A stretch of 64,000 bases of DNA. Origin: Maribellus maritimus (GTDB lineage: Bacteria; Bacteroidota; Bacteroidia; Bacteroidales; Prolixibacteraceae). Below, one piece after another: positions 3,337-49,504 of the stretch. The stretch lies in NCBI RefSeq assembly GCF_022267315.1, contig NZ_JAIKLE010000013.1, positions 1 to 64,000 of the forward strand, written 5' to 3'. The notes beneath the pieces are model-generated. The model had not been told where the DNA came from. It saw nothing but the letters and a program-made list of their open reading frames with translations, and searched no databases. How positions within the stretch are numbered: the first letter of the stretch is position 1; each line of letters starts with the position of its first letter. The translations under genes were made by a program, and so were the position numbers.

Positions 3337-3394
3337 GTTCAGTTTTTTAGGTCAAAAAATAGGTTTTAACTTTTATATCGTTTAGACAAATCGC

Positions 3395-5350: not shown

Positions 5351-5366
5351 AAAAAACAAAAATTAG

Positions 5367-5374
5367 TATCTTCG
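5367..5374 (+). promoter_or_regulatory. Candidate -7 element (TATCTTCG) with 5'-UTR hairpin
   Basis: A one-mismatch version of TAnnTTTG about 100 bases before cysQ. Just downstream, AATTTCA at 5379-5385 and TGAAATT at 5394-5400 could pair as a hairpin in the leader. Both are weak signals. Confidence 0.35.
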
Positions 5375-5471
5375 CCGCAATTTCAACAAATTTTGAAATT
5401 GTAATTGTTAAACGATTCTATTTGAATTCGTTGATAAATTATTTGTTTTTGAAAAATACCCCGGGGATAAA

Positions 5472-6266
5472 ATGGAAAACAAAACAAATCTGGAAATTGC
5501 GATAAAAGCCGCTGTTAAAGCAGGTGAAAAAATTTTGGAAATTTATAATGATTCGGATTTTTCGGTTGAAAAAAAAGCAGATAATTCACCCTTAACCATT
5601 GCCGATAAAAAAAGTCACGATATTATTCAGGAATATTTATCTAAGACTGAAATCCCTGTTTTAAGTGAAGAAGGGCGTAATATTGATTATTCAGAGCGAA
5701 AAGACTGGGAGCAATTCTGGATTGTTGATCCGTTGGACGGTACCAAAGAATTTATAAAAAAGAATGGTGAGTTTACGGTAAATATTGCTTTGGCGAAAAA
5801 CGGCAAGCCGGTAATGGGAATAATTTATGTTCCGGTTTCTAAAACATTATATTTTGGCGAGATTTCTTTAGGCGCGTTTATGTGTGAAAATATTAGTGGT
5901 GAAATTACGCTTGATTCAGTATTGAAAAAGAGTGAAAAATTACCAAAGCCCAAAAAAACGAAGAAATATTTTGTGGTTGGAAGTCGTTCACACATGAGTC
6001 CTGAAACTGAAGGATATATTAATGCGTTAAAACAAAAACATGCCGAAATTGATATTATTTCGAAAGGAAGTTCGTTAAAAATTTGTATGGTTGCTGAAGG
6101 TGTGGCGGACGAATATCCGCGTTTTGGACCAACCATGGAATGGGACACCGCTGCCGGACATGCTATTACAAACGCTGCAGGGAAAAAGCTTTGGCTGACT
6201 GATTTTTCGGAAGAATTAACATACAACAAAGAGAATTTATTAAACCCTTATTTTATAGTAAAATAA
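5472..6266 (+). CDS. cysQ: 3'(2'),5'-bisphosphate nucleotidase CysQ
   Basis: A 264-aa inositol-monophosphatase-superfamily enzyme that hydrolyses 3'-phosphoadenosine 5'-phosphate (PAP) to AMP. It carries the family metal-binding signature WIVDPLDGTKEFI, the upstream SEEG acidic motif (PVLSEEGRNID), and the C-terminal EWDTAAGHAI motif. Length is normal for CysQ. It is followed after 6 bases by cysC, so PAPS formation and removal of its toxic by-product PAP are paired. No sulfate adenylyltransferase (cysD/cysN) or PAPS reductase gene lies in this window. Confidence 0.93.
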   Translation: MENKTNLEIAIKAAVKAGEKILEIYNDSDFSVEKKADNSPLTIADKKSHDIIQEYLSKTEIPVLSEEGRNIDYSERKDWEQFWIVDPLDGTKEFIKKNGEFTVNIALAKNGKPVMGIIYVPVSKTLYFGEISLGAFMCENISGEITLDSVLKKSEKLPKPKKTKKYFVVGSRSHMSPETEGYINALKQKHAEIDIISKGSSLKICMVAEGVADEYPRFGPTMEWDTAAGHAITNAAGKKLWLTDFSEELTYNKENLLNPYFIVK

Positions 6267-6272
6267 ATAAAA

Positions 6273-6890
6273 ATGATTGAAGACAATATACATCCGGTGT
6301 TTGATAAAATTAAAGGCAGAAAATCAAAAGAAATCTATCTAAAACAACGAGCAAAAGTTATTTGGTTTACCGGTTTATCCGGTTCGGGAAAAACGACCAT
6401 TGCAAGTGCTCTTGAAAAAAGACTGTTTGAATTAAATTATTTCTGCCAGATTCTGGATGGAGATAATGTTCGTTCAGGAATCAATAAAAATCTCAAATTT
6501 ACTGCTGAAGATCGGATTGAAAACATCCGACGAATTGCCGAAGTTTCCAAGCTTTTTATGAACTGTGGAATTATCCTGATTTGTGCTTTTATAAGCCCAA
6601 CCAACGAAATTCGCGAAATGGCAAGAGAAATTATTGGCGATGAAGATTATCTGGAAGTTTTTATAAACACACCGCTTGAAGTTTGCGAAAACCGCGATCC
6701 GAAAGGATTATACAAAAAAGCCCGAACAGGTGAGATTAAAAATTTCACCGGAATTTCTGCTCCGTTTGAAGCACCAAACCATCCGTTTGTTGAAATTGAT
6801 AATTCAAATCCAAATATCGATAAAACGGTTACAGAGCTTTTAAGAGCAATTATTCCTGAAATAAAATTTGACCCTTTAAAAGAACTATAA
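6273..6890 (+). CDS. cysC: Adenylylsulfate kinase CysC
   Basis: A 205-aa APS kinase that phosphorylates adenosine 5'-phosphosulfate at the 3' position to give PAPS. The P-loop is GLSGSGKTT, followed by LDGDNVRSGINKNLKF, which contacts APS, and FINTPLEVCENRDPKGLYKKA, the lid segment. The length is standard and there is no fused sulfurylase domain. The start lies 6 bases after cysQ. PAPS can feed sulfation or assimilatory reduction; the window does not decide which. Confidence 0.95.
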   Translation: MIEDNIHPVFDKIKGRKSKEIYLKQRAKVIWFTGLSGSGKTTIASALEKRLFELNYFCQILDGDNVRSGINKNLKFTAEDRIENIRRIAEVSKLFMNCGIILICAFISPTNEIREMAREIIGDEDYLEVFINTPLEVCENRDPKGLYKKARTGEIKNFTGISAPFEAPNHPFVEIDNSNPNIDKTVTELLRAIIPEIKFDPLKEL

Positions 6891-7072
6891 CTCTTTTGCA
6901 TCTCTCTCATACTCATTGAAAAAAAAAAACACACAAACAGCTACTCCTCAATATATTAAATATAAGAATTGTGTTTCTTTCATTTTTAAAATAGACACCA
7001 TCTAAACAATCTTATGTTCTTTTTTGTTAACTTTTTTGATAAAATCGAAAAATAAAACTAAGACTTAAACAG

Positions 7073-8527
7073 ATGAAGATTGTTGTTTTAGGCGCAGGCA
7101 TTTCCGGTCATACTGCTGCCGCTTTCCTTAAGAAAAAACTCGGTAAAAAACACGATGTAATCGTAGTTTCTCCAAGTCAGTATTATCAGTGGATTCCTTC
7201 CAATATTTGGGTTGGAGTCGGAAGAATGACGGTTGATCAGGTGCGTTTTAAACTTGAAAAAGTATATAGACGTTGGGGAATCGTATTTAAGCAAGCCAAA
7301 GCCACGGCGATTTATCCTGAGGGTGATGAAAATACAAACATGGGATTTGTTGATATTGAATACACAGCTGCCGATAAAAAAGGCCAAACCGAAAAAGTAG
7401 AATACGATTTTCTCGTGAATGCAACCGGACCAAAACTAAACTTCGAAGCTACAGAAGGTTTGGGGCCGGGGAAAAAAACGGTCTCTGTTTGTTCTTACGA
7501 CCACGCTGCACACGCCTGGGAAGAATTGGAGAAAAGCATAAAATTAATGCAGGAAGGTAAAAAACAACGTTTCTTAATTGGAACCGGGCATCCAATGGCA
7601 ACCTGTCAGGGAGCTGCTTTTGAATATGCTCTGAACATCGCTTTTGAACTTAAAAGAAGAAAACTTTCGCATCTGGCGGAAATTACATGGATAAGCAACG
7701 AATTTGAAGTTGGTGATTTTGGAATGGGCGGTGCATTTGTAAAAAGAGGGGGTTACATTACTTCAACCAAAGTTTTTACTGAATCGGTTTTTGCAGAAAA
7801 CAATATCAAATGGATAAAACGTGCCGGAGTAAAAAAAGTGGAACAGGGAGTGGCACATTATGAAACGTTGGATGGAGAAGAAAAAACAACAGAATTCGAT
7901 TTTGCAATGCTTATTCCCGGGTTTGCCGGACAGGGAATAAAAGCTTACAACAAAACAGGTGAAGAGATTACCTCTACCCTGTTTGCAGCCAACGGTTTTA
8001 TGAAAGTTGATGCCGACTACAATCCAAAACCTTTTGAGGAATGGAGCATCAAAGACTGGCCTCAAACTTACCAAAACCCAACATATTCAAATATTTACGC
8101 CGCCGGAATTGCATTTGCGCCACCACATAGTATTTCAAAACCTATGAAAAGTGTAAATGGTACGGCCATATTTCCGGCGCCACCGCGAACCGGGATGCCA
8201 TCCGGAGTTATTGGTAAAATTATTGCTCAAAACATTGCACATGCTGTAAAAACAGGGAAAATAGAACACAAACATACGGCAAGTATGGGGAGAATGGGTG
8301 CAGCTTGTATTGTTTCTGCCGGATACAGTTTAACAAACGGACTTGGTGCTACGATGACTGTTTCTCCGGTTGTTCCCGACTGGGAAAAATATCCAGACTG
8401 GGGGCGAAACATAAAATCTACTGTCGGAGAGATTGGTTTGGCAGGACACTGGATTAAACTTTTCCTGCATTACATGTTTCTGCACAAAGCCAAAGGTTAT
8501 CCGTTCTGGTGGTTACTGCCTGAATAA
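7073..8527 (+). CDS. Sulfide:quinone-oxidoreductase-like flavoprotein
   Basis: A 484-aa FAD/NAD(P)-dependent pyridine-nucleotide-disulfide-family oxidoreductase. The N-terminal FAD-binding motif is VVLGAGISGHTAA. Three cysteines at residues 140, 178 and 412 (SVCSYD, ATCQGA, AACIVS) occupy places comparable to the three redox-active cysteines of sulfide:quinone oxidoreductases. The C-terminus is rich in aromatic and amphipathic segments (LFLHYMFLHKAKGYPFWW) that could insert into the inner-membrane leaflet. Predicted role: oxidising sulfide or a related thiol and passing electrons to quinone. A 52-aa ORF follows in the same orientation. Confidence 0.85.
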   Translation: MKIVVLGAGISGHTAAAFLKKKLGKKHDVIVVSPSQYYQWIPSNIWVGVGRMTVDQVRFKLEKVYRRWGIVFKQAKATAIYPEGDENTNMGFVDIEYTAADKKGQTEKVEYDFLVNATGPKLNFEATEGLGPGKKTVSVCSYDHAAHAWEELEKSIKLMQEGKKQRFLIGTGHPMATCQGAAFEYALNIAFELKRRKLSHLAEITWISNEFEVGDFGMGGAFVKRGGYITSTKVFTESVFAENNIKWIKRAGVKKVEQGVAHYETLDGEEKTTEFDFAMLIPGFAGQGIKAYNKTGEEITSTLFAANGFMKVDADYNPKPFEEWSIKDWPQTYQNPTYSNIYAAGIAFAPPHSISKPMKSVNGTAIFPAPPRTGMPSGVIGKIIAQNIAHAVKTGKIEHKHTASMGRMGAACIVSAGYSLTNGLGATMTVSPVVPDWEKYPDWGRNIKSTVGEIGLAGHWIKLFLHYMFLHKAKGYPFWWLLPE

Positions 8528-8569
8528 TAAAGTGATTGAATTGAATGAGTGAATTTAAAAAAGAAAAAA

Positions 8570-8728
8570 ATGAAAAATAAAATAACTTTCGCCAACAAGG
8601 ATGAATTTTACCCGCCAATTCCAACCAAAACGACAAAACGTTTGCGTACAAATATATTTGTTCAGATTTATAAATTTTTCAGGCTAAATCTGAAAATAAT
8701 GCTGATTGTTGTAAAGGGACATTCCTAA
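8570..8728 (+). CDS. Small protein downstream of the SQR-like gene
   Basis: A 52-aa ORF starting at ATG 8570 and ending with TAA at 8726-8728. It has a basic, proline-containing N-terminus (DEFYPPIPTKTTKRLRT) followed by a hydrophobic, membrane-compatible C-terminal half (RLNLKIMLIVVKG). The composition and the Pro-Pro-Ile-Pro start look like a genuine membrane-associated peptide rather than chance sequence. It lies 42 bases after the SQR-like gene in the same direction, suggesting a partner that anchors or modulates the oxidoreductase. I recognise only a general resemblance to small ORFs in this position in relatives, from memory. Confidence 0.65.
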   Translation: MKNKITFANKDEFYPPIPTKTTKRLRTNIFVQIYKFFRLNLKIMLIVVKGHS

Positions 8729-8731
8729 AAA

Positions 8732-9613
8732 TCAGCTAAAAATTTTCACCGAAGTCATTGTTAATGAACCGCCAACATATTTATCATTAAAAAATTCGAC
8801 TTCATCCTTTTTATCCTGTAAACCAAGAGTATAAATAAGCGGGTAATAATGGTCAGGTGTTGGAATTGCCAGCTTTGCCGCACTGCCGAGATTTTCGTAA
8901 TCGATTAATGCCTGATGTTCTGCTTTTCCAATTTTTTCTTTGAATATTTCATTCATCTCCTTTGCCCAGTCGAAACCAAAGTTGGGTGTATCCATATTTT
9001 GCCAGTCAACACGCCGAAGATTATGAACCATATTTCCACTGCCAATAATCAAGACGCCTTTTTTCCGAAGCGAAGCAAGTTCTGCTGCCAGCTTATAATG
9101 ATAGTCAGCGGGTTTATAAAAATCTATACTTAGTTGAATTACAGGAATATTAGCTTCAGGATACATATGTCGGACCACTGTCCATGTACCATGATCGAGC
9201 CCCCAATCATGATCCAACCCTACACTTGTAGTTTTTACAATAGACGACACTTCTTTTGCAAGCTCAGGTCTTCCCGGCGCAGGATATTGCACATCATAAA
9301 GTTCCTGCGGAAAACCACCAAAATCGTGAATCGTTTTTGGATTTGGCATTGCCGTAACATGGCTTCCGCGAGTCAGCCAGTGCGCTGAAATACACAAAAC
9401 GGCTTCCGGTTGCGGAATTTCTTTTGCAAGTTTTGACCAATATGCAGAAAACTCATTTTCTTCAATTCCATTCATTGGTGAACCATGCCCCATAAAAAGT
9501 ACAGGCATTTTATTATCTCTTTCGGCTAAATCGCCGGTTGCTTTTTGCAAATCTCTTAATCCTGACATTCCTGTTAATCCTCCAACTAAATATAAAAACT
9601 CTTTTCGTAGCAT
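8732..9613 (-). CDS. 4,5-DOPA-type extradiol dioxygenase (LigB family)
   Basis: A class III extradiol ring-cleavage dioxygenase related to YgiD/DODA, opening catechol-type rings using divalent metal. Conserved histidines are visible in LFMGHGSPMN, ISAHWLTRG, GLDHGTW, GSGNMVHNLR and PTPDHYYPL. The chosen start at 9613 gives 293 aa; an upstream in-frame ATG at 9652 would add 13 residues unlike the family. About 35 residues precede the first histidine block, with a weakly hydrophobic N-terminus. The gene converges on the small SQR-linked ORF with a 3-base gap. Confidence 0.9.
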   Translation of the reverse strand: MLRKEFLYLVGGLTGMSGLRDLQKATGDLAERDNKMPVLFMGHGSPMNGIEENEFSAYWSKLAKEIPQPEAVLCISAHWLTRGSHVTAMPNPKTIHDFGGFPQELYDVQYPAPGRPELAKEVSSIVKTTSVGLDHDWGLDHGTWTVVRHMYPEANIPVIQLSIDFYKPADYHYKLAAELASLRKKGVLIIGSGNMVHNLRRVDWQNMDTPNFGFDWAKEMNEIFKEKIGKAEHQALIDYENLGSAAKLAIPTPDHYYPLIYTLGLQDKKDEVEFFNDKYVGGSLTMTSVKIFS

Positions 9614-9699
9614 AAAATACCGATAAAGTGGATTAAAAAAGGATCTGACCAAGCGATCAAATCCTTTCTAATGGCGTATATACCTTATTAAACCAACAA

Positions 9700-10311
9700 T
9701 TAAATGGCCTCAGCCGTTGCAACCAAATTAAATTCAATTTCAAAATCATCATAAATCATTTTATCGCCAAGACCACTAAAAAATTTACCCGATCCGTATT
9801 TTACATCATATTTTGTTCTATCAATCTCCGCAGTACCATTTGCCGTAACCGTACCATCATTTACCTCAACTGTTGCAGGAAACGAAAGCTCGTGAGTGAT
9901 ACCTTTGATGGTAAGCTTTCCGGTTACAATATATTCTCCGTCAGCTGCACCAGCTTTAAATCCCGTTGCTTCAAAAACGGCGTGAGGATGATTTTCTACA
10001 GAAAAGAAATCATCTGACTTTAAGTGCCCAACCAATTTTTGATTCATATCACCTGAAAGATCGGTACAAGCGATACTGTTCATATCCATTTTAATATTTG
10101 CCAACTCCAGGCTTTCTCCACTAACATGTACTTCTCCATTATTCACCGAAACTGTACCTGTGTGTTCTCCTGTCACTTTTTTACCGGTCCAGGTTACTTT
10201 ACTCTTCATGGGATCAACCTTGTATACAGCCTTTCCATCGTCTACACCTTTTGCCATTACTCCTACCGAGAGAAATAATACGCTTAATAATACTAAACTT
10301 AACTTTTTCAT
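9700..10311 (-). CDS. YceI family periplasmic lipid-binding protein
   Basis: A 203-aa secreted protein with a clear signal peptide (residues 1-20, cleavage after VMA) and a YceI lipocalin-like barrel, seen in VDPMKSKVTWTGKKVTGEH and the C-terminal KMIYDDFEIEFNLVA. YceI proteins bind long-chain isoprenoid or quinone-like lipids in the periplasm. A TAAGTTTG promoter element lies 29 bases upstream. It is followed by the dioxygenase gene 86 bases downstream on the same strand. Confidence 0.93.
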   Translation of the reverse strand: MKKLSLVLLSVLFLSVGVMAKGVDDGKAVYKVDPMKSKVTWTGKKVTGEHTGTVSVNNGEVHVSGESLELANIKMDMNSIACTDLSGDMNQKLVGHLKSDDFFSVENHPHAVFEATGFKAGAADGEYIVTGKLTIKGITHELSFPATVEVNDGTVTANGTAEIDRTKYDVKYGSGKFFSGLGDKMIYDDFEIEFNLVATAEAI

Positions 10312-10339
10312 TTTTCTGATTTTTTAATTATTAACACTG

Positions 10340-10347
10340 CAAACTTA
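10340..10347 (-). promoter_or_regulatory. Bacteroidota -7 promoter element for yceI (TAAGTTTG)
   Basis: On the minus strand this reads TAAGTTTG, an exact TAnnTTTG match, 29 bases before the YceI ATG. A run of T followed by TTTG lies about 15 bases further upstream, short of the usual 19-base spacing. Confidence 0.5.
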
Positions 10348-10383
10348 CATTGTCATAAACATCAAAAAAATAAACTAGTTTAA

Positions 10384-10408
10384 TAAAAAGACAAATTAGT
10401 CTTTTTTT
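10384..10408 (-). terminator. Intrinsic terminator overlapping the stop codon of the Crp/Fnr gene
   Basis: Read on the minus strand, an A-rich arm ending AAAGAC, a short loop and the complementary GTCTTT arm form an 8-bp stem running into T residues. The stop codon of the upstream Crp/Fnr gene (10396-10398) lies in the loop. Confidence 0.55.
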
Positions 10409-10971
10409 CTTGCGCGTTTTGACAAAATTTTGCTTAAAAATACGGGAGTAACTCCTAAATAGGATGAAATATGGTACTGGGGAAGCCGATTTATTAATTC
10501 AGCATGGTTATTTACTAAATCTTCGTAGTTTTCTTCGGCGGTTTTTGCAAGAATAGAAATCAGCCTTTTTTGCTGAAATATGTATGAACGTTTCAAATAA
10601 CGAACAAACGAAGCAAAATTATTGGTGAGTTTATTCATGTTCTCGTCAGTAACTGAATATACGACACTTTTCTCTACTGCATCAAGAAAATAAGAAGTTT
10701 CGGCGGGTGTAGCCAAATCACCAATCCATTGGTTTTCGCGGGCAAACAAAATATTAAATTCTTTGCCGGAAGAGTCAATAACATACATTCGCAATAAACC
10801 TTTTTCAATAAAATAATGACGAGTATTTGTTTCGCCACTACCAAAAATGAGTTGTTTTTTTTCAAATATTTCTTTTCGAAATGAAATCTGAATCAACTCC
10901 TTCTCTGCGATTGAGAGTTCCCGCTCAAGATTTTTTTCATAAAATTTTTCTATGGCAACAAAATTTTCCAT
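10396..10971 (-). CDS. Crp/Fnr family transcriptional regulator
   Basis: A 191-aa cyclic-nucleotide-binding-fold regulator of the Bacteroidota type. The sensory barrel covers residues ~30-120 (YFIEKGLLRMYVIDSSGKEF). The C-terminal helix-turn-helix is INRLPQYHISSYLGVTPVFL-like, ending LSKILSKRARKKD. No iron-sulphur cysteine motif is seen. It lies upstream of yceI on the same strand but is separated from it by a terminator hairpin and a promoter element, so the two are probably independent units. Confidence 0.9.
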   Translation of the reverse strand: MENFVAIEKFYEKNLERELSIAEKELIQISFRKEIFEKKQLIFGSGETNTRHYFIEKGLLRMYVIDSSGKEFNILFARENQWIGDLATPAETSYFLDAVEKSVVYSVTDENMNKLTNNFASFVRYLKRSYIFQQKRLISILAKTAEENYEDLVNNHAELINRLPQYHISSYLGVTPVFLSKILSKRARKKD

Positions 10972-11157
10972 ATCCTTTCAGCGCTTATACAGGTAAAAAT
11001 AAGAAGTTTTAGTTGAAACAGATGCCTGAAAAAGAAAAAGCCTTATAAACCAATAAATTTAAAATAGAGTAGCAAAATAATTTAAAACTGGATTTCATTT
11101 TTTCACAAATAACTACAAACCTTTCAACAGAGTATAGGATAGCCAGAACCAAATTAT

Positions 11158-11165
11158 TATATTTG
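11158..11165 (+). promoter_or_regulatory. Bacteroidota -7 promoter element (TATATTTG)
   Basis: An exact TAnnTTTG match 59 bases before the DUF1080 gene, placing the likely transcription start about 50 bases ahead of the glycan-degradation cluster. Confidence 0.55.
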
Positions 11166-11223
11166 ACAGCACAGATCAATTAAAATTTTTATTCATTTCC
11201 TTTAAGGATTAAAAAAACTAATC

Positions 11224-11961
11224 ATGAAAAAGAACATTTTAACAGTAGTTATTTTTGCTGCGGGGATTTTGCTTTCTGCAACAACAATGGCACAAAAACC
11301 AAACACACTTACGAGAGCCGAAAAAAATGACGGCTGGGTACTACTTTTTAACGGTAAAGATTTCGATGGCTGGCGCCAATGCAACGGAACGGAAATGCCT
11401 GCCAATTGGGAAATTGAAGATAACACAATGAAAGTATTTACCGGAGAAGGAAAAAATCCCGGTCAGGGAGCTGGCGGCGATATCCTTTTTGAAGACAAAA
11501 AATTTAAAAACTTTGAATTGTCAATTGATTGGAAAGCGGGAAAAATGGCGAACTCAGGAATCTTCTACTATGTCCGCGAAGTTCCGGGTAAACCTATTTA
11601 TTTTGCAGCTCCGGAAGTTCAGGTGCTTGATAATAAAGACGCTACCGATAATAAAATAGATAGTCATCTTGCCGGTTCGCTTTATGACATGATTGCAGCA
11701 GATCCATCAACTATAAATCCTGCAGGAGAGTGGAATACCTGCGTAATTAAAGTAGACGACGGTGAAGCAACCATCAGCATGAACGGCACCGAAGTAGTAA
11801 AATATACACACTGGACACCTGAATGGGATGAACTGGTACAAAACAGTAAATTCAAAAATTTCCCCGGTTTTACCGAAGGTATTGCCAAAGAAGGTTATAT
11901 TGGTTTGCAGGATCACGGATATACAGTTTGGTTCCGTAATATAAAAATTCGCGAACTTTAA
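11224..11961 (+). CDS. DUF1080 (3-keto-disaccharide hydrolase-like) secreted protein
   Basis: A 245-aa exported protein. Residues 1-23 form a signal peptide ending TMA-Q. The rest is a concanavalin-like beta-sandwich of the DUF1080/PF06439 family, with the characteristic WVLLFNGKDFDGWRQ at the start and GYIGLQDHGYTVWFRNIKIREL at the end. Members are linked to hydrolysis of 3-keto-glycosides and are frequent in Bacteroidota sugar loci. It is the first gene of a same-strand run with GH92, GH29 and GH92, 86 bases upstream of the first mannosidase. Its exact substrate is unknown. Confidence 0.9.
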   Translation: MKKNILTVVIFAAGILLSATTMAQKPNTLTRAEKNDGWVLLFNGKDFDGWRQCNGTEMPANWEIEDNTMKVFTGEGKNPGQGAGGDILFEDKKFKNFELSIDWKAGKMANSGIFYYVREVPGKPIYFAAPEVQVLDNKDATDNKIDSHLAGSLYDMIAADPSTINPAGEWNTCVIKVDDGEATISMNGTEVVKYTHWTPEWDELVQNSKFKNFPGFTEGIAKEGYIGLQDHGYTVWFRNIKIREL

Positions 11962-12047
11962 ACGGGCATAAACGACCAAATTTTAAAACTAATTCTACAT
12001 TCTGCTATCCATTTATTTAAAAAAAATTTGTTTTAAAATTTGTTATT

Positions 12048-14297
12048 ATGAAATTATTAAACAGCAGGCTTTTTAGTCTGCTACCTCTTTTTTTGTTCTT
12101 TTCCTGCGGGAATGAACAGCAGGTGCAACAATCGACGGATTACACTCAGTTTGTAGACCCGTTGATTGGAAGTGGTTACCACGGTCACGTATTTGTAGGA
12201 GCGAGTGTTCCTTTTGGTGCGGTTCAACTTGGACCAAACAACGAAACACAAGGTTGGGACTGGTGTTCCGGCTATCACTATTCCGATTCGGTTTTAATCG
12301 GATTTGCTCATACACATTTAAGTGGCACAGGAATTGGAGATTTAGGTGACCTTGTTTTTATGCCTGTTTCCAACGCTTTCAATCCTGAAGAAGCAAAAGA
12401 AACACCTTTCCCCTGGAAGTCAAAATATTCACACGACAATGAAAAAGCAAAAGCCGGTTATTATTCGCTTCACATCGATCGATATAATGTCGACGCCGAA
12501 TTAACAGCTACCAAACGGGTTGGTTTCCATAAATACAATTTTAATGCTGATGGAAATTCAAAAATTATAATTGATTTGAAATACGGAACCGGTTGGGATA
12601 AAATAACAAAAGGGGCCATTCAACAGGCAAATAACAATTCTGTTAAAGGGTTTCGTTTTTCGAGTGGATGGGCACAAGACCAGCAGTTATTTTATTACAC
12701 ACGGTTTTCAAAAGACATAAAAAAATTTGAAATACTTGAATCCGATGAAGAAACAGGCGATATGACTGCCATTATCGAATTTGAAGGAAATGGCGAGCTG
12801 ATGGTAAAGACTGGAATTTCTCCCGTAAATATGAGGGGCGCCGAAAATAATATGCTTGCTGAGATCGACGAGGAAATCGGTTTATGGAATTTTGATGCAG
12901 TGAAAGAAATGGCACAAACGATGTGGAATAATGAATTGGGGAAAATTGATATTGAATCAACCAATCTTTCAAACAAAAAAATATTTTACACATCACTCTA
13001 TCACACAATGATTGCGCCGTCGTTATTTAATGATGTAAACGGAGACTATCGGGGGGCAGATCGACAAGCCCATGAAAATCCGGGCTACGACACGTACACA
13101 ACTTTTTCGTTGTGGGATACCTATCGTGCAGCTCATCCGCTTTATACGCTTACGCAACCCAATCGTGTTAACGACTTTGTAAATACAATGCTTGATATAT
13201 ACAACCAACAGGGCAAACTTCCGGTTTGGCATCTCCACGGTAACGAAACCAATACTATGGTTGGATATCATGCAGTTCCGGTTATTGCAGACGCCTACTT
13301 GAAAGGATTTCGGGGTTTTGACGCTGAAAAAGCGTTGGACGCAATGAAAGCTTTTTCGATGCGGGACGAACGTGGACTGGATTTCATAAAAAAACAGGAA
13401 TATATTCCTGCAGAGTCACAGGTAGAGTCTGTTGCGCGTGCGATGGAATATGCGATCGACGATTGGTGCATTGCTGCTATGGCAAATGCTATGGGAAAAA
13501 CAGAAGATGCTGAACTTTATACAAAACGATCAAAATATTATCGGCATTATTTTGATAAAGACATTCATTTTGTTCGTGGTAAAATGGGCGACGGAAGCTG
13601 GAGAACTCCTTTTGACCCTATTTCGTCGCAACATCGCAACGACGATTTTTGCGAGGGAAATGCCTGGCAGTACACCTGGCTGGTGCCACATGACCCGGAA
13701 GGGCTAATTCAACTATTTGGAAGTGAGGAAGCTTTTATCAATAAACTGGATAGCCTTTTTACCATTGATTCAGAACAAGTAGAAGGTGCTTCTTCTGATA
13801 TTTCCGGATTAATCGGTCAATATGCGCATGGAAACGAACCAAGTCATCATACAACTTATATGTATGCTTATGCAGGACAACAATGGAAAACCGCTGAATT
13901 GGTTCGCGAAATTTGCAGTACCATGTATACTGATCAAAATGACGGTTTGTGCGGCAATGAGGATTGTGGACAAATGTCGGCGTGGTATGTTTTTTCATCG
14001 ATGGGAATGTACCCGGTAAACCCGGCAGCTGGAGCATATGTATTTGGCAGCCCGGTGTTTGACACAATAACTATTAATTTACCTGAAAATAAATCATTTA
14101 CCATTATTGCTGAAAACAACAGTCCTGAAAATATTTATATCCAATCGGCAATGCTCAATGGGAAGGAATACAAAAAGACATTTATCACCCATAAAGATAT
14201 ATTAAACGGAGGCACACTCAAATTTGTGATGGGGAACCAACCGCATGAGGAATACGGAGCTGCATTGGAAAATCGTCCAGAATCAAATGTTTACTAA
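12048..14297 (+). CDS. GH92 exo-alpha-mannosidase, lipoprotein
   Basis: A 749-aa GH92 enzyme, a calcium-dependent inverting alpha-mannosidase family. The N-terminus is a lipoprotein signal peptide with lipobox FFSC. The N-terminal beta-sandwich begins YTQFVDPLIGSGYHGH and the (alpha/alpha)6 domain follows from about residue 300. Likely general acid is Glu536 in FCEGNAWQYTW. The base region is CGNEDCGQMSAWYV, and the substrate motif GNEPSHHTTYMY is present. It resembles members acting on alpha-1,2-mannose. The downstream fucosidase start overlaps its end by 11 bases. Confidence 0.93.
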   Translation: MKLLNSRLFSLLPLFLFFSCGNEQQVQQSTDYTQFVDPLIGSGYHGHVFVGASVPFGAVQLGPNNETQGWDWCSGYHYSDSVLIGFAHTHLSGTGIGDLGDLVFMPVSNAFNPEEAKETPFPWKSKYSHDNEKAKAGYYSLHIDRYNVDAELTATKRVGFHKYNFNADGNSKIIIDLKYGTGWDKITKGAIQQANNNSVKGFRFSSGWAQDQQLFYYTRFSKDIKKFEILESDEETGDMTAIIEFEGNGELMVKTGISPVNMRGAENNMLAEIDEEIGLWNFDAVKEMAQTMWNNELGKIDIESTNLSNKKIFYTSLYHTMIAPSLFNDVNGDYRGADRQAHENPGYDTYTTFSLWDTYRAAHPLYTLTQPNRVNDFVNTMLDIYNQQGKLPVWHLHGNETNTMVGYHAVPVIADAYLKGFRGFDAEKALDAMKAFSMRDERGLDFIKKQEYIPAESQVESVARAMEYAIDDWCIAAMANAMGKTEDAELYTKRSKYYRHYFDKDIHFVRGKMGDGSWRTPFDPISSQHRNDDFCEGNAWQYTWLVPHDPEGLIQLFGSEEAFINKLDSLFTIDSEQVEGASSDISGLIGQYAHGNEPSHHTTYMYAYAGQQWKTAELVREICSTMYTDQNDGLCGNEDCGQMSAWYVFSSMGMYPVNPAAGAYVFGSPVFDTITINLPENKSFTIIAENNSPENIYIQSAMLNGKEYKKTFITHKDILNGGTLKFVMGNQPHEEYGAALENRPESNVY

Positions 14298-16371
14298 AAA
14301 AAGAGATAAAATTTATCTACTGCTGTTTTCAATATTTCTTGCTTCTGTCCTATTCAGCTGTAGGGAAACAAATTCTCCACGGCCATACGGGGCCATACCG
14401 TCAGAAGCTCAAATAAGATGGCACGAAATGGAGTACTACAGTTTAATTTGTTATGGACTGAATACGTACACCGAAGAAGAATGGGCCTACGGAAATGTTG
14501 ATCCAAAATTGTTTGATCCGAATGATCTAAACACCGACCAGTGGGCAAAAACAGCTTACGAGGCTGGCATGAAAGGACTAATTTTAGTTTGTAAACACCA
14601 TGACGGTTTTTGTCTTTGGCCAAGCAAGTACACCGATTATTCGGTAAAAGCAACCCCATGGAAAGACGGACAGGGAGATGTATTGGGAGAGTTGAAAAAA
14701 TCGTGTAAAAAATACGGGTTACATCTGGGAGTTTACCTGTCACCATGGGACAGGAATCACGCTAAATACGGGTACTCCGAATATGTAGAATACTATTACA
14801 ACCAACTGGAAGAGTTAATGACCAATTATGGTGAAGTGTTTGAGTTTTGGATTGACGGAGCAAACGGTGGCACAGGGTATTACGGAGGTGCAAACGAAAG
14901 GCGTAATATCGATCGCAGAACCTATTATGGTTATGATTCTATTTTCTCAATTGTGCACAAATACCAGCCCGATGCAGTAATTTTTAGCGATGCAGGTCCC
15001 GGGGTACGCTGGGTTGGAAACGAAGCCGGGATAGGAAATGAAACCAATTGGAACACTTTTGATCCGGAGGGAAAATTTCCGGGAGAAAGTGAAAGTTTTG
15101 GAAAAAGGCTTGGTACAGGCGATAAAGGTGGGCCTCAATGGATTCCCGCAGAGGTAAATACAACTCTACTTTGGCCTAAAGCCTGGTATTTTCACACCGG
15201 CCATCAGCCACGAAGCCTATCCAACTTAATGGATTTATATTATACATCCATTGCACGCGGATCAACTCTGAACCTTGGTATTGCCATTGCTCCAAGTGGC
15301 CGTATACAGCACAGCGATGTCCGGGCTTTATTAAAGTTTAAAAAGCAGGTTGACCTTGAATTCAGTGAAAACCTTATTGTTGAAGCAACGCTTTCTGCCA
15401 GCAATACAAGGGGAAATTCAAAGAATTTTAGTATACAGAAATCCGTTGATAATAACACCAAAACTTACTGGGCTAGTGAAGACAGTGTAAAGGAGGCTAC
15501 CATCGAGATTAATTTTGCAGTAGCTACGCGTTTTAACCGTCTGCTTTTGCAAGAATATATTCGTTTGGGACAACGTGTTAAAGCTTTTACTTTTGAAGTG
15601 GAACAAAATGGTAAATTTGAAAAAATTGCGCAGGGAACTACCGTCGGGTATAAACGAATATTACAAATGGATGAAATAACAACAACCAAAGCGAGATTAA
15701 CTCTAAAAACCGATGCTCCATGTATCACGATTTCGGAATTGGGACTTTTCAATGCGCCTGTTTTAATCGATGATCCCGTTTTACACGTGTCCTTAAACAA
15801 CACAGTTACTTTTGAAGAAATAGAGGGAGCAACCGTCTTTTATTCCTTAAAACCGAAACCGGAAGTAGAAGACTTTATTGCATACTCCTCTCCACTTATA
15901 CTCCCCGGTGGAGGAGAAATACATTATTTTGCAAAAGCCGATTCTGGAGATTATTCAACAGATATTATTGACGAAGAAATTGGTATTTCCAGGGAGTTGT
16001 GGAAAACTGTTCCGGCAAATCTGATGAAAAATGCAATCGATAATAAAGCGAGAACTTTTGCTGACTCCAAATCCGGAGAGATTATAATTGACTTTGGAAG
16101 AAATGAAACGTTCGAAGGTTTTTCCTATCTTCCACGACAAGACGGAAAAAAAGAAGGCATAATATACGAATATGAGTTATATTGCAGTCGGGACAGTAAA
16201 AATTGGGGTTCTCCGTTGGCAACAGGAATATTTAGCAACATTGAAAACAACCCTGGTTTGCAAAAGTTAAAGCTAAAAAATAAGGTTACCGGAAGATTCA
16301 TCAAGCTGATTTCAAAATCGGATGTTAAAAACAGCGACCTTGCAACTTTTGCTGAAATAAAGGTTTATTAA
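14287..16371 (+). CDS. GH29 alpha-L-fucosidase with C-terminal binding domains, lipoprotein
   Basis: A 694-aa retaining alpha-L-fucosidase. The start at ATG 14287 gives a proper lipoprotein signal peptide (lipobox LFSC); a further upstream ATG at 14245 would spoil it. The GH29 barrel covers residues ~25-360, including KHHDGFCLWPSKYTDYSVK, and the catalytic nucleophile is probably Asp190 in FEFWIDGANG. Two discoidin-like (F5/8 type C) regions follow at about residues 370-490 and 590-690, separated by a chitobiase/HEX-C-like segment (TFEEIEGATVFYSLKP). It overlaps the GH92 gene by 11 bases, implying coupled translation and a shared glycan target. Confidence 0.93.
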   Translation: MFTKKRDKIYLLLFSIFLASVLFSCRETNSPRPYGAIPSEAQIRWHEMEYYSLICYGLNTYTEEEWAYGNVDPKLFDPNDLNTDQWAKTAYEAGMKGLILVCKHHDGFCLWPSKYTDYSVKATPWKDGQGDVLGELKKSCKKYGLHLGVYLSPWDRNHAKYGYSEYVEYYYNQLEELMTNYGEVFEFWIDGANGGTGYYGGANERRNIDRRTYYGYDSIFSIVHKYQPDAVIFSDAGPGVRWVGNEAGIGNETNWNTFDPEGKFPGESESFGKRLGTGDKGGPQWIPAEVNTTLLWPKAWYFHTGHQPRSLSNLMDLYYTSIARGSTLNLGIAIAPSGRIQHSDVRALLKFKKQVDLEFSENLIVEATLSASNTRGNSKNFSIQKSVDNNTKTYWASEDSVKEATIEINFAVATRFNRLLLQEYIRLGQRVKAFTFEVEQNGKFEKIAQGTTVGYKRILQMDEITTTKARLTLKTDAPCITISELGLFNAPVLIDDPVLHVSLNNTVTFEEIEGATVFYSLKPKPEVEDFIAYSSPLILPGGGEIHYFAKADSGDYSTDIIDEEIGISRELWKTVPANLMKNAIDNKARTFADSKSGEIIIDFGRNETFEGFSYLPRQDGKKEGIIYEYELYCSRDSKNWGSPLATGIFSNIENNPGLQKLKLKNKVTGRFIKLISKSDVKNSDLATFAEIKVY

Positions 16372-16487
16372 AAAATCAGGGAGGCAGACAACTCCTTTTC
16401 TGTTGCATCTGGCAGTAAAAAAAGAAAAAAGATAATCTTTGGAAATAAAAAAAATCAATTCGAATTAATAACTAAAAAAATATAAAG

Positions 16488-27864: not shown

Positions 27865-28059
27865 TTATTGCTTTACAATTTTCTGGTTCAACATAATTTG
27901 TCCTGCTCCATCAATAAGTATAATAGTATAAATACCAAGCAGAGCACTAAAATCAACGATTGTTTTTATGTTGTCTGTTTGCAGCCTGAAAACAGAACTC
28001 CCGCTTATATTATAAATATTCATAAACAGACTTTTGCCGGTATTATTTTTACTTTTCAA
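27865..28059 (-). pseudogene. Remnant of a T9SS C-terminal sorting domain
   Basis: Read on the minus strand, this gives MNIYNISGSSVFR, IVDFSALLGIYTIILID and a terminal MLNQKIVKQ. That is the pattern of a type A type IX secretion C-terminal domain. It has no ATG start and lies directly after the broken sulfatase in another frame. The two were probably once one secreted protein. Confidence 0.6.
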
Positions 28060-28069
28060 TCATCCAATC

Positions 28070-29437
28070 TTAGGGAGCCGTGAATCCGGATTTCCCGACA
28101 TTATATCTGGAAATCTGATGGTCTGATTTTGTGTCTGAAAACGTTTCAACAGCTTGCAGAAGTTCTTTTAAAAGTTTTGGGTTCTCTTCTTTAACATCGT
28201 TGCTTTCAATATTCAAGGAATCAAAATAAAAAAGCATATTTAATGCTCCGCATCGGGATACTCTGTCCTGGGCATCGCGCTCCAGAACCAACTTCCAGTT
28301 ATTGTAATTCACCGCGAATCGTTCTCTTTTTTCAACGTTTTGATCTAAATATGCAAACCACTTGCGCTCAACATTCTTACCATTCCCTCTCATATTCTCT
28401 AAAACATTTATACTATCAAACTCATTATCATTTGTTGTTTTACCCTGAGTAATAGCCTTTAACGTAGGAAAAATGTCGATGTACCCCATTTAAGTATGTA
28501 TAATTTTGCCTCCGCTAACACCGCCGGCGGGCCAGTGAGCTGCGGCAACAACACGAATGCCTCCTTCGTAAACAGTTAATTTATTTCCCTTCATTGGTGA
28601 GTTATCGCCTACATTTTTAACATCTCCATTGTCGCTAAAAAATAAAGGTATTATCTCTGTCTCCGCGTTTTTCGACAGCATCGATTATTCGGCCAATTGC
28701 CTGATCCATACAATCCACCATCTCCGCATAAATGCGTTGTTTTCCTTCGCGATGCGGATATTTGGCAATGTCCTCCTCTTTCGCCTGATAAGGTGAATGC
28801 GGGGCAGTAAAAGGTACATAAAGAAAATAAGGTTCTTTGTCGGGAACACTGTTGATGAAACCAACTGCCTCATCTGCAATAATATCTATTACGTATCCAT
28901 CCGCATGAATAGTCTGCGAATTTCTGTGCCAATCAGCTTCTCCTTCCCTTACCTTTGTAAAATAGTCTATTGCTCCGTTGTAACAGCCGGCAAAATAGGT
29001 AAAGCCCTGACTGTTGGGATGCCACTTCTTTCTTAAATGTCCCAAATGCCATTTGCCAATGCATGCCCGGTGCTCATAGCCTGCCTCGGCAAGCATTTCC
29101 GGCAATATAATTTCATTCGGATCCAATCCAAAACCGCGATATGGCGGTATCACCGATCGCATCAATCCATAGCGGATCGGATAGCGTCCTGTCATCAATC
29201 CTGCACGCGTTGGAGTACACATCGGGCAGGCTAAAAATTTTCAAGTCTTACTCCACTATACGCCAGCTTGTCTATGTTTGGTGTGTTAATGTCGCTGTTA
29301 TGAAACCCAACATCAGCATATTTCAAATCGTCGTCCAGAATAATTAAAACATTTGGTTGTTTCACCTTTTGAGCACTCCCGCTAAAGCTACAACTTTGAA
29401 GAAAAACTGCTGTTACTAAAAGCAAAATAACTTTCAT
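28070..29437 (-). pseudogene. Sulfatase (arylsulfatase family) pseudogene
   Basis: A formylglycine-dependent sulfatase broken into four pieces. Piece 1 (29437 down to 29231) has a lipoprotein signal (LQSC) and the metal motif ILDDDLKYADVGF. Piece 2 (29222-28635) has the sulfatase signature CTPTRAGLMTGR and GKWHLGH. Piece 3 (28681-28490) has FFSDNGDV. Piece 4 is 28489-28070. Lesions: a one-base loss near 29231, a length change in a run of six T near 28637-28642, an in-frame TAA at 28490-28492, and an early TAA at 28070-28072 before DWMIEK. It cannot make an active enzyme as it stands. Confidence 0.85.
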
Positions 29438-29570
29438 CGATATTCTATTATTAAACATGGCACCCAAGACATATTCCACTATATATCAATATATTACACG
29501 AAAATCCAGAAACATAAATCAAGTACTGAACCTCTCTGTAAAAAATTTCAATGAATTAACAGCGACTTTT

Positions 29571-30074
29571 TTACTTTCTATTTCGAAGCTGATTCCATAT
29601 ATCTTTTATCCCCTTTTCACCATCAAAATAATCCGCTTGCACATTTTTGTCAAAAATTTCGAATGACGGTGCCAACAATATTTTATCGGAATCAGGGTAC
29701 TCAGCTATGTCATAGCCGTTATAGGTTCTTATGTCTAAGTAAACACACGACTCTGAAGTATGATTATACAGTTGATGAGCCCCTGTTTCTCCCTTTTCAA
29801 AAAAAATCAAATCTCCGCTGTTTACAATCTCCAATCCATCGGGAGTTCTTAATGTTGCTGAGCCGGAAATAATCATAAAAAGTTCTTCTGCAAATCGGTG
29901 AAAATGGTAGGGAGCGGAATATTGATCGGGATTCAATTTTCTCAAATCAAAATTCAGATTTTCAGGTTTTATGCCATTTTTTTCCCGCGAACTATCTGTA
30001 AATATCTTGTAATTATCAATCTTATTTGGATTTTCCAGATATTCTCTTTGATTTGCTTTTAAAATTTTTGCCAT
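29571..30074 (-). CDS. Cupin domain protein
   Basis: A 167-aa single-domain cupin. The first metal motif is YHFHRFAEELFMIISGSATL (His, His, Glu) and the second is GETGAHQLYNHT (His). Length and fold match small cupin_2 proteins, which are often isomerases, dioxygenases or sugar-binding proteins; no specific function is assignable. It appears intact although it lies between two patches of degraded genes. Confidence 0.9.
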   Translation of the reverse strand: MAKILKANQREYLENPNKIDNYKIFTDSSREKNGIKPENLNFDLRKLNPDQYSAPYHFHRFAEELFMIISGSATLRTPDGLEIVNSGDLIFFEKGETGAHQLYNHTSESCVYLDIRTYNGYDIAEYPDSDKILLAPSFEIFDKNVQADYFDGEKGIKDIWNQLRNRK

Positions 30075-30164: not shown

Positions 30165-30575
30165 TTATAAAGCAGCTTTTTGGTAATACTGAATATTATC
30201 AAAATGTTTCCCTTCCGCTGTAAAAAAGCGTTGAATAACTTTCATTTTTACCTCACTTTCAATTATCCTTGACGCAAAAGCTATCACCTTTTCGCCTTTG
30301 AAAGTATAAGAATTCAAAATAAATTCCGATTCAAACTCACTCATCACTTCGTCTGCTACCTGCGGATTTTCGTACTTTTTCCTCTGCCCGTCCGGGACAG
30401 TTTGGTATTCAACCTCGAACTCTTTTCCTTCCTCATCCATCCAATTTATAAAAACTTCGAAACCATTATTCTTGCTTTGTCTGAATTCATAAGTTGCTTT
30501 TAAAGGAGGAGTTCCCCGCTCGTACTACGACTTATCGGGGATTAAATCCCATTTTCCCAGAAAATTATTTTTCAT
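30165..30575 (-). pseudogene. Small beta-rich (lipocalin-like) protein interrupted by TAG
   Basis: The ATG at 30575 opens a frame reading MKNNFLGKWDLIPDKS, then TAG at 30525-30527, then in the same frame YERGTPPLKATYEF and on to FFTAEGKHFDNIQYYQKAAL. Reading through the stop gives a coherent 136-residue, mainly beta protein of unknown function. The part after the stop can be started only at an internal ATG (30440). The stop replaces one codon without a frameshift. The broken gene overlaps the end of the upstream GNAT gene in the same frame. Confidence 0.6.
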
Positions 30576-31079
30576 TTGTATTTCTTTCCATTCGTGCCTC
30601 AATATACTATAATAAATTGTATCTCGCCTTCTCTTATGTGTCATTAAAGTATGACTTCTCAAACCCCCTTCTTCAACAGCACCTATTCGCTTCAATGCGT
30701 TTCTTGCCGGTTTATTCAAAATATCAGTCTTAAATTCAACACGCTCACAATTTAGTTCATCGAAACAATATTTCAGAAGCAAATATTTAACCGCTTCATT
30801 TACACCTTTTCCCTGAAACTCTCTGCCAAGCCATGTCCAACCAATTTCAATCCGCTTATCCCGTTTTGAAATATTTCCAATGCTGGTTGAGCCGGCAACG
30901 GAATTTGTCTGTTTGTCAACGATTAAAAAGACGATCCTCTTTTTAATTTTTGTTTCCTTTACACCAGCCTCAATCCAATTTTTGAGTTCATCCTGGTCTG
31001 ACAAATCATTTGTAAAATAAGTCCATAGACCAGTATCTCCGCTTATTTCTTTCAGGATATCATAATCTCCTTGTTTCAA
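30525..31079 (-). CDS. GNAT family N-acetyltransferase with eroded ends
   Basis: A RimJ/RimL-type GNAT: residues include IGWTWLGREFQGKGVN at the acetyl-CoA loop, CERVEFKTDILNKPARNALK, and RRRDTIYYSILRHEWKEI at the natural C-terminus. Family sequence (TLLRPLKQGDYDIL) extends upstream of the first possible TTG start at 31079 to about 31112, where the expected ATG reads ATA. At the other end HEWKEI runs through CAA where a stop would fit, directly into the ATG of the next gene and on to TAG at 30525. Start and stop both look mutated, so this is probably a decaying gene. Confidence 0.6.
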   Translation of the reverse strand: MKQGDYDILKEISGDTGLWTYFTNDLSDQDELKNWIEAGVKETKIKKRIVFLIVDKQTNSVAGSTSIGNISKRDKRIEIGWTWLGREFQGKGVNEAVKYLLLKYCFDELNCERVEFKTDILNKPARNALKRIGAVEEGGLRSHTLMTHKRRRDTIYYSILRHEWKEIQMKNNFLGKWDLIPDKS

Positions 31080-31127
31080 TGGTCGTAATAATGTCTGATT
31101 TGTCTCCGGTATCTTGTTAATAGTCTA

Positions 31128-31495
31128 TCATTTGCTGTCCGTTCAGAAAAATAACAATCCAGCGCAGTTTTTTGCAACTGCCATCAAAAACTCGGATTCT
31201 CTCCATTTTACGCCGCCTTATCTACCTGAAATTGAGTCTGTAACGATTTTTTTTTAAAAAAAACTTGTCATGGCATATATCCTGCCTATTTTACCGGATA
31301 AATAATCCATTATTTTTTACTTCTTTTTGTTGCTTTTTTTGCTGGCAGCTCATCACTCCATTATGGGTTTTAACTTCTTAAAAACAGATATTATTCACAA
31401 AAACGATAATAAATAAACAAACATTGGGGCCGGCCAGATTGAACTTTTATACATCGGGGATTTGTGATTCGGAGTGGCAACTTTATCAAATAAAA
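31128..31495. other. Gene-free stretch
   Basis: About 370 bases between the eroded GNAT gene and the thioredoxin terminator. It is AT-rich with homopolymer runs. I see no coding sequence, RNA gene or clear promoter here. It may be residue of deleted genes. Confidence 0.5.
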
Positions 31496-33419: not shown

Positions 33420-33533
33420 ATAAGGCTGTCCTGAAAACTTTGTATCTACCCAATTAAAAACATCAAAAACAACTAAACTAAATCAAAAACCAACAAAGCC
33501 TCACTCCCTTCCAATGAACCAGAACAGCCTTAT
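33420..33533. mobile_element. Candidate MITE (114 bp, terminal inverted repeats)
   Basis: The ends are perfect 10-bp inverted repeats, ATAAGGCTGT at 33420-33429 and ACAGCCTTAT at 33524-33533. Pairing extends a few bases inward with one mismatch (CTG/CAG). The AAGGCTGTCCTGAAAA end resembles IS terminal repeats that I recall from Bacteroidota. The interior is A-rich and encodes nothing. It lies in the 137-base gap inside the redox operon. A long-range hairpin that is not mobile is the alternative. Confidence 0.4.
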
Positions 33534-33541
33534 GATAATTT

Positions 33542-33892
33542 TTATTCTCCAAATTTTTCATCAAGAATGCCGGTTACCTGCTGCATATTCTGTATGCTGC
33601 TGGTTGCATGAGCTACTTCACCATTTTTATAATACATGGTAAACGGCAACCCCATAAAACCACGACATTCAGGAGCGTTGCGAATTACAGCTGCTTCAGG
33701 ATTGTCAAATGCCATTACTGCAAATTTCACGTTTTCACGCTCGTCTTCCAGCTCTTCCATTACATCGTAAACCGGCAAACACATTGGCCCCATCCGACCA
33801 CAGCATACCATTACATTTTCATTTTCGTTGATAAAACTTTCCAATTCTGCTGCGGTTTCAAATTCATGTAAACCTGTTTGTAATAATTTCAT
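33542..33892 (-). CDS. Atypical thioredoxin-fold protein
   Basis: A 116-aa thioredoxin-like protein. The fold is suggested by the C-terminal cis-Pro segment FMGLPFTMYYKNGEV. In place of a normal CxxC it has VCCGRMGPMCLP, with cysteines at 30, 31 and 38. GPMC aligns with GPC of the canonical motif, so the resolving cysteine may be kept and the first one displaced. A further cysteine lies in NAPECRGF. Located between the NifX-like gene and trxB, it could be a dedicated TrxB substrate or a thiol/metal handler. Function is inference. Confidence 0.75.
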   Translation of the reverse strand: MKLLQTGLHEFETAAELESFINENENVMVCCGRMGPMCLPVYDVMEELEDERENVKFAVMAFDNPEAAVIRNAPECRGFMGLPFTMYYKNGEVAHATSSIQNMQQVTGILDEKFGE

Positions 33893-39531: not shown

Positions 39532-40371
39532 CTATTTTTGATGATATATTAGTACCGGCGTATCAATATCGTTTAGTATTTCCTTGGTTGTGCTTCTGCC
39601 AAAAATTTCTTTAAAAAAATTCTTATTCTGTTTTAATAAAACAACCAAATCGGCATACGATTTTTGCGTAAATCTGCGGATGCCTTTTGCCGGGCTACCG
39701 GCTTTTTCCTGTTCTACCTTCATATCGTTCAAATCAATCTTTTTATTCACCACTTCCTGGAGCCCGTTCCTTTTAAGCTCAGCATCAAACTCTTTTGATT
39801 TTAGTGCATGAAATACAGTTACCGACGCAGTAAACTTTTTGGCCAGTCGCGCAATTCGTTTGAGTATTTTTACATCTTGTTTCTGATAATCGGAAGCATA
39901 AACTATGGATTTAATTTTGTGATACTCCTCATCAAGCGGGAAAGTATATACCGGCAAATCCAAATCGTCAATCATCTCAAAAACTACAACATCCATTCTG
40001 TTTTTTGTTGTGAAGGGCACAATTACCATTTCCACATCATCTCTTTCGTGAAGCATTTTTGCAACGACCGAAACAGAACCCGGTACAACAGTAAAATGAA
40101 CCGGATAATCATAATCTAACGAAACTTTTTTTACATGAAGTAATTTTTGCAAAATACGTGTCCGCTCTTTAACCAGTAAATCATTCTCACCCTCTGCAAC
40201 ATTACTTAGTGAATTGTATTTTGTAATGGTGGGATCCCAATTGACATTTTTAGATTCGGTTGCATGTAAAAATTCCAGTTCACGATTTAAATCGCGAGCT
40301 AACTTTATTGAATAGTCAGCTATTTTTTCTACATTTTCAAAAGAATAAATTATTGAGACTATTTTTTTCAT
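39532..40371 (-). CDS. Universal stress protein (tandem UspA-like)
   Basis: A 279-aa two-domain Usp-like protein. The start at ATG 40371 (MKKIVSIIYSFENVEKIADY) matches family length; an upstream ATG would add 30 unlikely residues. Domain 1 covers ~1-140 and domain 2 ~145-275 (IVYASDYQKQDVKILKRIAR). The C-terminus, YADLVVLLKQNKNFFKEIF followed by LNDIDTPVLIY, is closely mirrored by the second Usp gene at 61105. The ATP-binding G-2x-G-9x-G loop is not clear in either domain. Confidence 0.88.
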   Translation of the reverse strand: MKKIVSIIYSFENVEKIADYSIKLARDLNRELEFLHATESKNVNWDPTITKYNSLSNVAEGENDLLVKERTRILQKLLHVKKVSLDYDYPVHFTVVPGSVSVVAKMLHERDDVEMVIVPFTTKNRMDVVVFEMIDDLDLPVYTFPLDEEYHKIKSIVYASDYQKQDVKILKRIARLAKKFTASVTVFHALKSKEFDAELKRNGLQEVVNKKIDLNDMKVEQEKAGSPAKGIRRFTQKSYADLVVLLKQNKNFFKEIFGRSTTKEILNDIDTPVLIYHQK

Positions 40372-40630
40372 GGTTGTTTTATTAAATCGTTCTACTCTAT
40401 CTGTTTCAATTGCAAATTTCGTTCTATTACAGGTTGTAATCTTCAAATAAAAATCCAACAAAACACAACAAGCAGTTTTTCAATACTTTATAAACAAGTA
40501 TCCGCAAAATCGGGAAAATATAACCTTTTTAAGTAGTGTAGATTTCTTGTTGACCTGTGGATGTAATGCCACAAAATTATGAGCAAACGATTGTGTTTTT
40601 ATGTAAATAAGAATAGTGTGAGAAACAAAA
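40372..40630. other. Gene-free stretch upstream of the Usp gene
   Basis: About 260 bases of AT-rich sequence with no ORF I trust, bounded on the right by the hairpin at 40631-40658. It presumably holds the Usp promoter, but I see no TAnnTTTG element. Confidence 0.4.
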
Positions 40631-42253: not shown

Positions 42254-42579
42254 ATCATTTAAATTTTGAAAATCTGCTAAATACCAGCGAACAATTATGC
42301 CAACTCAAGAAACACATTTAACCTCCAAATCCTACGAACTGAAAACCAACATATTAAATTCAAAAACCAATATATTCCTTGTTGTATTTTCTGGTGTGGA
42401 CTTGGTAAAACGAATCCACACATTGAGGTTAATAGTCTACAAGAATGAAACAAATGAAGCGCATTCTCGGAAAATAACTAAAAACCTAAAAAACAGACAT
42501 TTAAAAACAAAAAATACAAACAATTGATATTGTGGTCGGGAATTTGGCTGAGCAATCCCAAAACATTAAAAAAATTATT
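42254..42579. other. Divergent intergenic stretch
   Basis: About 325 bases between two outward-facing envelope genes. A TGGCAT with downstream TTCGC lies at 42286-42302 on the minus strand. A 76-codon ORF on the plus strand (42297-42527) is compositionally unlike a protein. Otherwise nothing specific. Confidence 0.4.
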
Positions 42580-43071
42580 ATGAAAAAAATCGTTTTAGTT
42601 ACGCTGATGATTTTAAGTACGGGAGTTGTAATGGCTCAATATGATTTTGCAATCGGGCTCCGCTCAGGGGGGACTTCCGGTATTACACTGAAAAAAAACA
42701 ACGGAGCCTCAGCATTTGAAGGTATTGTGGGTTTCTGGCACGACGGCGTAAGTTTAACCGGACTATGGGAGAAAAATCAAATGGCTTTTAACGAACCCGG
42801 GTTAAATTGGTTTTATGGTGTTGGAGGCCATGTTGCATTTTATGGCGATGATTTTGACGGAAGATATGGAGCATCGTGGTACAACCATCCGCACGGTATT
42901 GATGACGGAGACTTTGGGATTGGTATTGACGGTGTAATCGGTCTGGAATATAAAATACCGGATGTTCCCATTGCATTTGATATTGGACTAAAACCATACA
43001 TCGAAATTGTTAGTGAAGGAGGAGTTTTCTTCTCGCCTGACCCGGGAATAGGAATTAAAATCGCTTTTTAA
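42580..43071 (+). CDS. Small predicted outer-membrane protein
   Basis: A 163-aa exported protein. The start at ATG 42580 gives a clean signal peptide (MKKIVLVTLMILSTGVVMAQ); an earlier ATG at 42532 would put 16 unlikely residues before it. The mature part has short alternating strands (YDFAIGLRSGGTSGITLKK, VPIAFDIGLKPYIEIVSEG) consistent with a small barrel. No specific family is recognised. A terminator follows. Confidence 0.85.
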   Translation: MKKIVLVTLMILSTGVVMAQYDFAIGLRSGGTSGITLKKNNGASAFEGIVGFWHDGVSLTGLWEKNQMAFNEPGLNWFYGVGGHVAFYGDDFDGRYGASWYNHPHGIDDGDFGIGIDGVIGLEYKIPDVPIAFDIGLKPYIEIVSEGGVFFSPDPGIGIKIAF

Positions 43072-49252: not shown

Positions 49253-49504
49253 TTAATGATTCCGAAGTGCGTGTATCAAATCGTTTTTGTTCATTTTACT
49301 TCTTCCTGAAATACCTATTTTGGCTGCTTTTTTATAAAGTTCTTCTTTTGTCCATTTTTCATATTTTTTACTTTTTCCGCCTTTTGTTCCGGAGTCCGGT
49401 GTATTGGCAATTCTGGCTGCTTTTTCTTTACTGTAGCCTTTATCTCTTAATGCCTCATATTGTTTTTCATTTTTAACCTGAGGGATACTATTTTTCTGTG
49501 GCAT
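49253..49504 (-). CDS. Small basic protein with ChaB-like and Rho-N/SAP-like parts
   Basis: An 83-aa lysine-rich protein. The N-terminal half (YEALRDKGYSKEKAARIANT) has a helix pattern common in small stress-linked proteins. The C-terminal half (WTKEELYKKAAKIGISGRSK, then MNKNDLIHALRNH) resembles the Rho N-terminal/SAP nucleic-acid-binding helix-extended-loop-helix. It is probably a DNA- or RNA-associated protein made under stress. The role is inference. Confidence 0.8.
   Translation of the reverse strand: MPQKNSIPQVKNEKQYEALRDKGYSKEKAARIANTPDSGTKGGKSKKYEKWTKEELYKKAAKIGISGRSKMNKNDLIHALRNH

Follow-up and report, generated by a model that had tools for sequence, protein, structure and literature searches.

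GNAT N-acetyltransferases (PF13302), seven proteins carrying DUF2452 (PF10504) and ordinary bacterial pseudogenes are the described systems closest to a gene on the minus strand of the window, by which we mean the whole 64,000-nucleotide stretch of Maribellus maritimus DNA that was analysed. The first half of this gene resembles GNAT enzymes by a domain match (E 1.1e-19) and by a stand-alone relative at 50% identity, but it differs from them in that a second domain follows in the same frame and in that the gene is broken. RimL- and RimJ-type NCBIfam models were matched weakly by the GNAT half, below their cut-offs. Over their first ~135 residues the seven DUF2452 proteins can be aligned with the second half (22-32% identity), but in those proteins DUF2452 follows behind the aligned domain (according to Pfam for one and judged by eye for the others) and no GNAT domain stands in front. 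Bacterial pseudogenes formed by frameshift and nonsense mutations share with the locus its lesions, a raised dN/dS in one half and an intact sister orthologue; the difference is that the window's broken gene is itself a fusion, found in two species only. The fused gene is most probably an ordinary recent pseudogene, with a second pseudogene, a sulfatase, nearby in the same row.

The reading we consider very probable is that a GNAT and small-domain fusion, older than the split between two species, has become a pseudogene in the window through an insertion and a TAG codon, as part of the decay of an accessory gene row. The GNAT gene and the second-domain gene would have been fused before the window species and its sister species (G031) diverged. 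In the window lineage, the fused gene would then have been broken by the insertion of one base shortly behind its start codon, and codon 17 of its second half would have become a nonsense codon. A sulfatase in the same row decayed too, while the cupin gene that separates the two and, further upstream, the thioredoxin genes stayed intact. The common fusion, the window-specific lesions and the intact neighbours were observed directly; the fused gene would presumably make no working product, and the cause would be a loss of selection on the accessory row.

Window and G031, a member of the same genus (single contig), were compared by DNA alignment. Positions 30165-31121 (minus strand) of the window form a single frame with one internal stop only, and the same locus in G031 is one intact 321-codon ORF (L036:8410-9375), running from ATG to stop and holding the GNAT domain and a 136-residue second domain in frame. 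This is an intact orthologue in a close relative, as expected for a pseudogene, and no single window ORF spans more than 57% of its 321 aa. The GNAT half (Acetyltransf_3; 30588-31131, minus strand) matches PF13302 over residues 11-148 with 71.9 bits against a curated cut-off of 25.4, and is 93% identical to the GNAT half of G031, which there adjoins the second half. The second half (30165-30584, minus strand), broken by the TAG, is 91% identical to G031 and has stand-alone homologues in L053, L094 and L095. Upstream of the fused gene, a 65 bp stretch (31361-31425) has a 77% match to another contig of the same genome (G000:C99:56716-56781), and elsewhere this region has only short, weak matches.

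The G031 ORF begins at an ATG six codons before the ATA at 31110-31112 (minus strand). The same ATG is present in the window (31129-31131, minus strand), where its frame ends at the fifth codon, after a one-base insertion relative to G031 at 31121 (minus strand; a short run of A and T leaves the exact place uncertain). The start of the stand-alone G051 GNAT coincides with that of the G031 ORF, MLDFQKI in the former corresponding to MINFNKI in the latter. The sequence-only reading had overlooked the insertion and placed the lesions at three single-base changes, namely the ATA where ATG was expected, a CAA replacing the stop after HEWKEI, and the TAG. All three codons are there, but only the TAG is new: the ATA was ruled out as a lost ATG, since G031 carries it too as an internal codon of an intact frame, and G031 likewise reads through the CAA in its 321-aa ORF. 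Because the ATG is conserved and ATA and CAA are common to G031, no start or stop codon was lost in the window lineage. A sister genome with the identical arrangement, named in that reading as what would speak against it, exists for ATA and CAA but not for TAG. The locus is a small, clean case of misreading from one genome, with an old fusion, an old 'lost start' and the true lesions elsewhere.

The in-frame TAG (30525-30527, minus strand) is codon 202 of the 321-codon frame, or codon 17 when the second half is counted by itself. Its polarity follows from the sense codon found at this place in both G031 and L094, and the possibility that TAG is read as sense under a different genetic code was set aside on the same ground. 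Together with the insertion near 31121 it makes up the lineage-specific disabling mutations expected of a pseudogene. The second half gave no Pfam or NCBIfam match and one weak match to PDB sequences (E 0.065). A single-sequence structure model predicts an all-beta domain of nine strands at weak confidence (pLDDT 58.7), and a check of this model for a lipocalin-like beta barrel fold returned no PDB match at E 0.001. Beyond the window's own genome, the second half is present in one of 60 relatives, namely G031. With the own genome counted it was found in 2/61 relatives, 1/393 genomes of the order (the own genome, G031 evidently not having been drawn), 10/395 of the class and 9/395 of the phylum, the class and phylum counts overlapping; elsewhere within the class it occurs as a stand-alone protein.

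The position of the TAG allows another reading, gene fission, in which the TAG splits the fusion, the GNAT half survives as a single-domain enzyme with a non-ATG start and the second half is lost. The TAG falls ~17 residues past the old natural GNAT end, ATT (31119-31121) or TTG (31077-31079) as start could yield most of the GNAT half, a 184-codon frame is open from the TTG to the TAG, and the QGKG stretch, presumably the acetyl-CoA loop of a GNAT, is still present. A start at the TTG, however, would cost the protein 17 residues, among them an LRP stretch that G031 and G051 both retain. The pairwise dN/dS also argues against a surviving enzyme, as the GNAT half is less constrained (0.40) than the second half (0.12), and so does the polarisation of amino-acid changes by outgroups, which places eight changes of the GNAT half on the window side and two on the sister side (3 unpolarised). 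We regard fission as unlikely.

For decay of the whole fused gene, the selection data are as follows. The sulfatase has a dN/dS of 0.39, and the median over 123 ORFs with a value is 0.08; since 11 of these exceed 0.2, a raised dN/dS alone proves little. The second-half value resembles that of a live gene, so that the decay must be recent, and recent decay of the accessory row is the best reading. Sulfatase changes were distributed 16:3 between window and sister (24 unpolarised). Four control genes pooled (OsmC, TrxB, a Crp-like gene and a 117-aa gene without Pfam match at 1e-5) gave 5:5, three further control genes had no polarised changes, and the cupin gave 2:3 (4 unpolarised; one outgroup only). 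Second-half changes were 5:1 (5 unpolarised) with the two nearest homologues as outgroups and 1:3 with seven distant outgroups.

Controls and cupin (7:8) served as the reference set for Fisher tests. GNAT half and sulfatase together (24:5) differed from it with p = 0.019, and adding the second half polarised by its nearest homologues (29:6) gave p = 0.016, against p = 0.096 when the seven distant outgroups were used for the second half. Taken singly, the p-values were 0.21 for the GNAT half, 0.066 or 0.46 for the fused gene, depending on outgroup choice, and 0.030 for the sulfatase, for which relaxed selection is thus clearer than for the fused gene. Judged from these substitutions, relaxed selection on the fused gene by itself is likely rather than proven. 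It had been proposed on the strength of all three codons; the proposal stands as likely, resting on the TAG and on the lesions that had gone unnamed, not on ATA or CAA.

The sulfatase pseudogene (28049-29467, minus strand) lies two genes downstream of the fused gene, beyond the intact cupin gene, and had also been overlooked. Its reading frame is shifted twice, near 29231 and near 28638, and is interrupted by two in-frame stops, and its G031 orthologue is an intact 476-aa ORF (PF00884, E 5.2e-51). The intervening cupin gene (29571-30074, minus strand; 167 aa, PF07883) has no lesion and a dN/dS of 0.12; a partial match to it (G000:C111, 69% over 213 bp) lies elsewhere in this genome. The thioredoxin genes upstream of the fused gene are intact. 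In three other genus members the order of the thioredoxin genes is conserved, and in their three 20-kb stretches no match at E 1e-8 was found to the fused gene, the cupin or the sulfatase, which suggests that the row is accessory. Relatives of the sulfatase at 54-56% were found in 4 of 12 other genus members. The names thioredoxin, cupin, GNAT, sulfatase, OsmC, pyridine-nucleotide oxidoreductase, Crp-like and RF-1 domain were taken from Pfam, and the gene names TrxB and ArfB are those we presume to apply.

Broken genes were also looked for along the contig. The scan was limited to ORFs in three colinear blocks (window contig 93-14299, 16488-77532 and 77580-144973), and 124 G031 ORFs of at least 100 codons were compared. 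Coverage by a single window-contig ORF was used as the measure, because lesion flagging does not see frameshifts near gene ends. It reached at least 93% for 116/124 ORFs; six of the eight ORFs below this value lie inside the window, where the sulfatase, at 0.41, and the fused gene, at 0.57, had the lowest coverages. A stretch of ~2.2 kb (14300-16487) is without counterpart in the colinear sequence of G031 and holds an alpha-L-fucosidase-like ORF (PF01120, 708 aa, 14245-16371).

Lesion flagging marked 10 of the 124 ORFs, including the fused gene and the sulfatase. Three ORFs in the window (5472-6266, 39532-40461 and 42532-43071) differ at the 5' end with the remaining frame open, and a fourth with a 5'-end difference (contig 143594-144552) is open in the first part looked at. 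Another flagged ORF is antisense to an intact gene (33514-33871), and in one of 103 aa the frame is open when read from an inner start (49253-49504). Beyond the window, a 273-aa G031 ORF meets an in-frame stop at codon 254, which cuts ~20 residues (G000:C44:85227-86047), and a 231-aa G031 ORF has most of its middle missing and its frame damaged (G000:C44:77405-77669), clearly a third broken gene. Because of these last two, gene losses are not confined to the row of the fused gene and the sulfatase.

Assembly or base-calling errors in healthy genes could in principle mimic such lesions, and the assembly is a draft of 201 contigs. However, the fused gene and the sulfatase, both in one row, together carry six lesions that fall into two kinds, three nonsense codons and three indels (1, 1 and 5 bases), and the great majority of ORFs on the contig are well covered in the scan, so that we hold errors to be improbable, at roughly one chance in a score.

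As to the origin of the fusion, both halves are known as separate proteins that end or start at the junction. The CAA at 30585-30587 (minus strand) marks the old junction: here the 50%-identical GNAT of G051 ends, a stand-alone protein of 184 aa from another family of the same order. L094, a locus in another genome of the class, encodes a stand-alone 134-aa protein whose first codon is the ATG adjoining the junction, and 80 of its 134 aligned residues are identical to the second half of G031. Since both halves occur as separate proteins, the fusion may most simply be taken as a derived state common to the two species, and because the junction CAA is also found in G031, it would predate both. 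That two separate genes are losing start and stop codons while a fusion is being born is barely credible and is refuted by the G031 sequence: the stand-alone homologues meeting at the junction do indicate that a fusion once occurred, but G031 has the same junction codon and ATA in an intact ORF. The sequence-only reading's two neighbouring genes are accordingly one already fused gene, intact in G031 and broken in the window. Its proposal of a newly forming GNAT fusion finds no support, since this frame is shared with G031, where it is intact; the fusion is so older and is being lost in the window.

Among 37 genus genomes, a full-length match to the fusion was found only in G031 and in the window's own genome (G000), and G035 has a match to the GNAT half alone. 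A scan of genome contigs gave one locus, with a GNAT half match at 26%. Among the few loci examined, the two genes lying adjacent but separate were seen neither in the short flanks of L046-L053 nor by eye around L092, L094 and L095; the flanks of L046-L053 gave two weak matches, the better of which (E 0.033) lies inside a 442-aa ORF. What the locus offers is thus a fusion found in two species only and being lost in one of them, with no wider biological surprise.

Across the fusion junction (30512-30803), window and G031 are ~98.5% identical against an average of 94%, and the two halves differ in synonymous divergence (0.079 and 0.287). Similarity this high occurs in about 8% of stretches of 260 columns, and the high identity at the junction may be due to chance or to local recombination.
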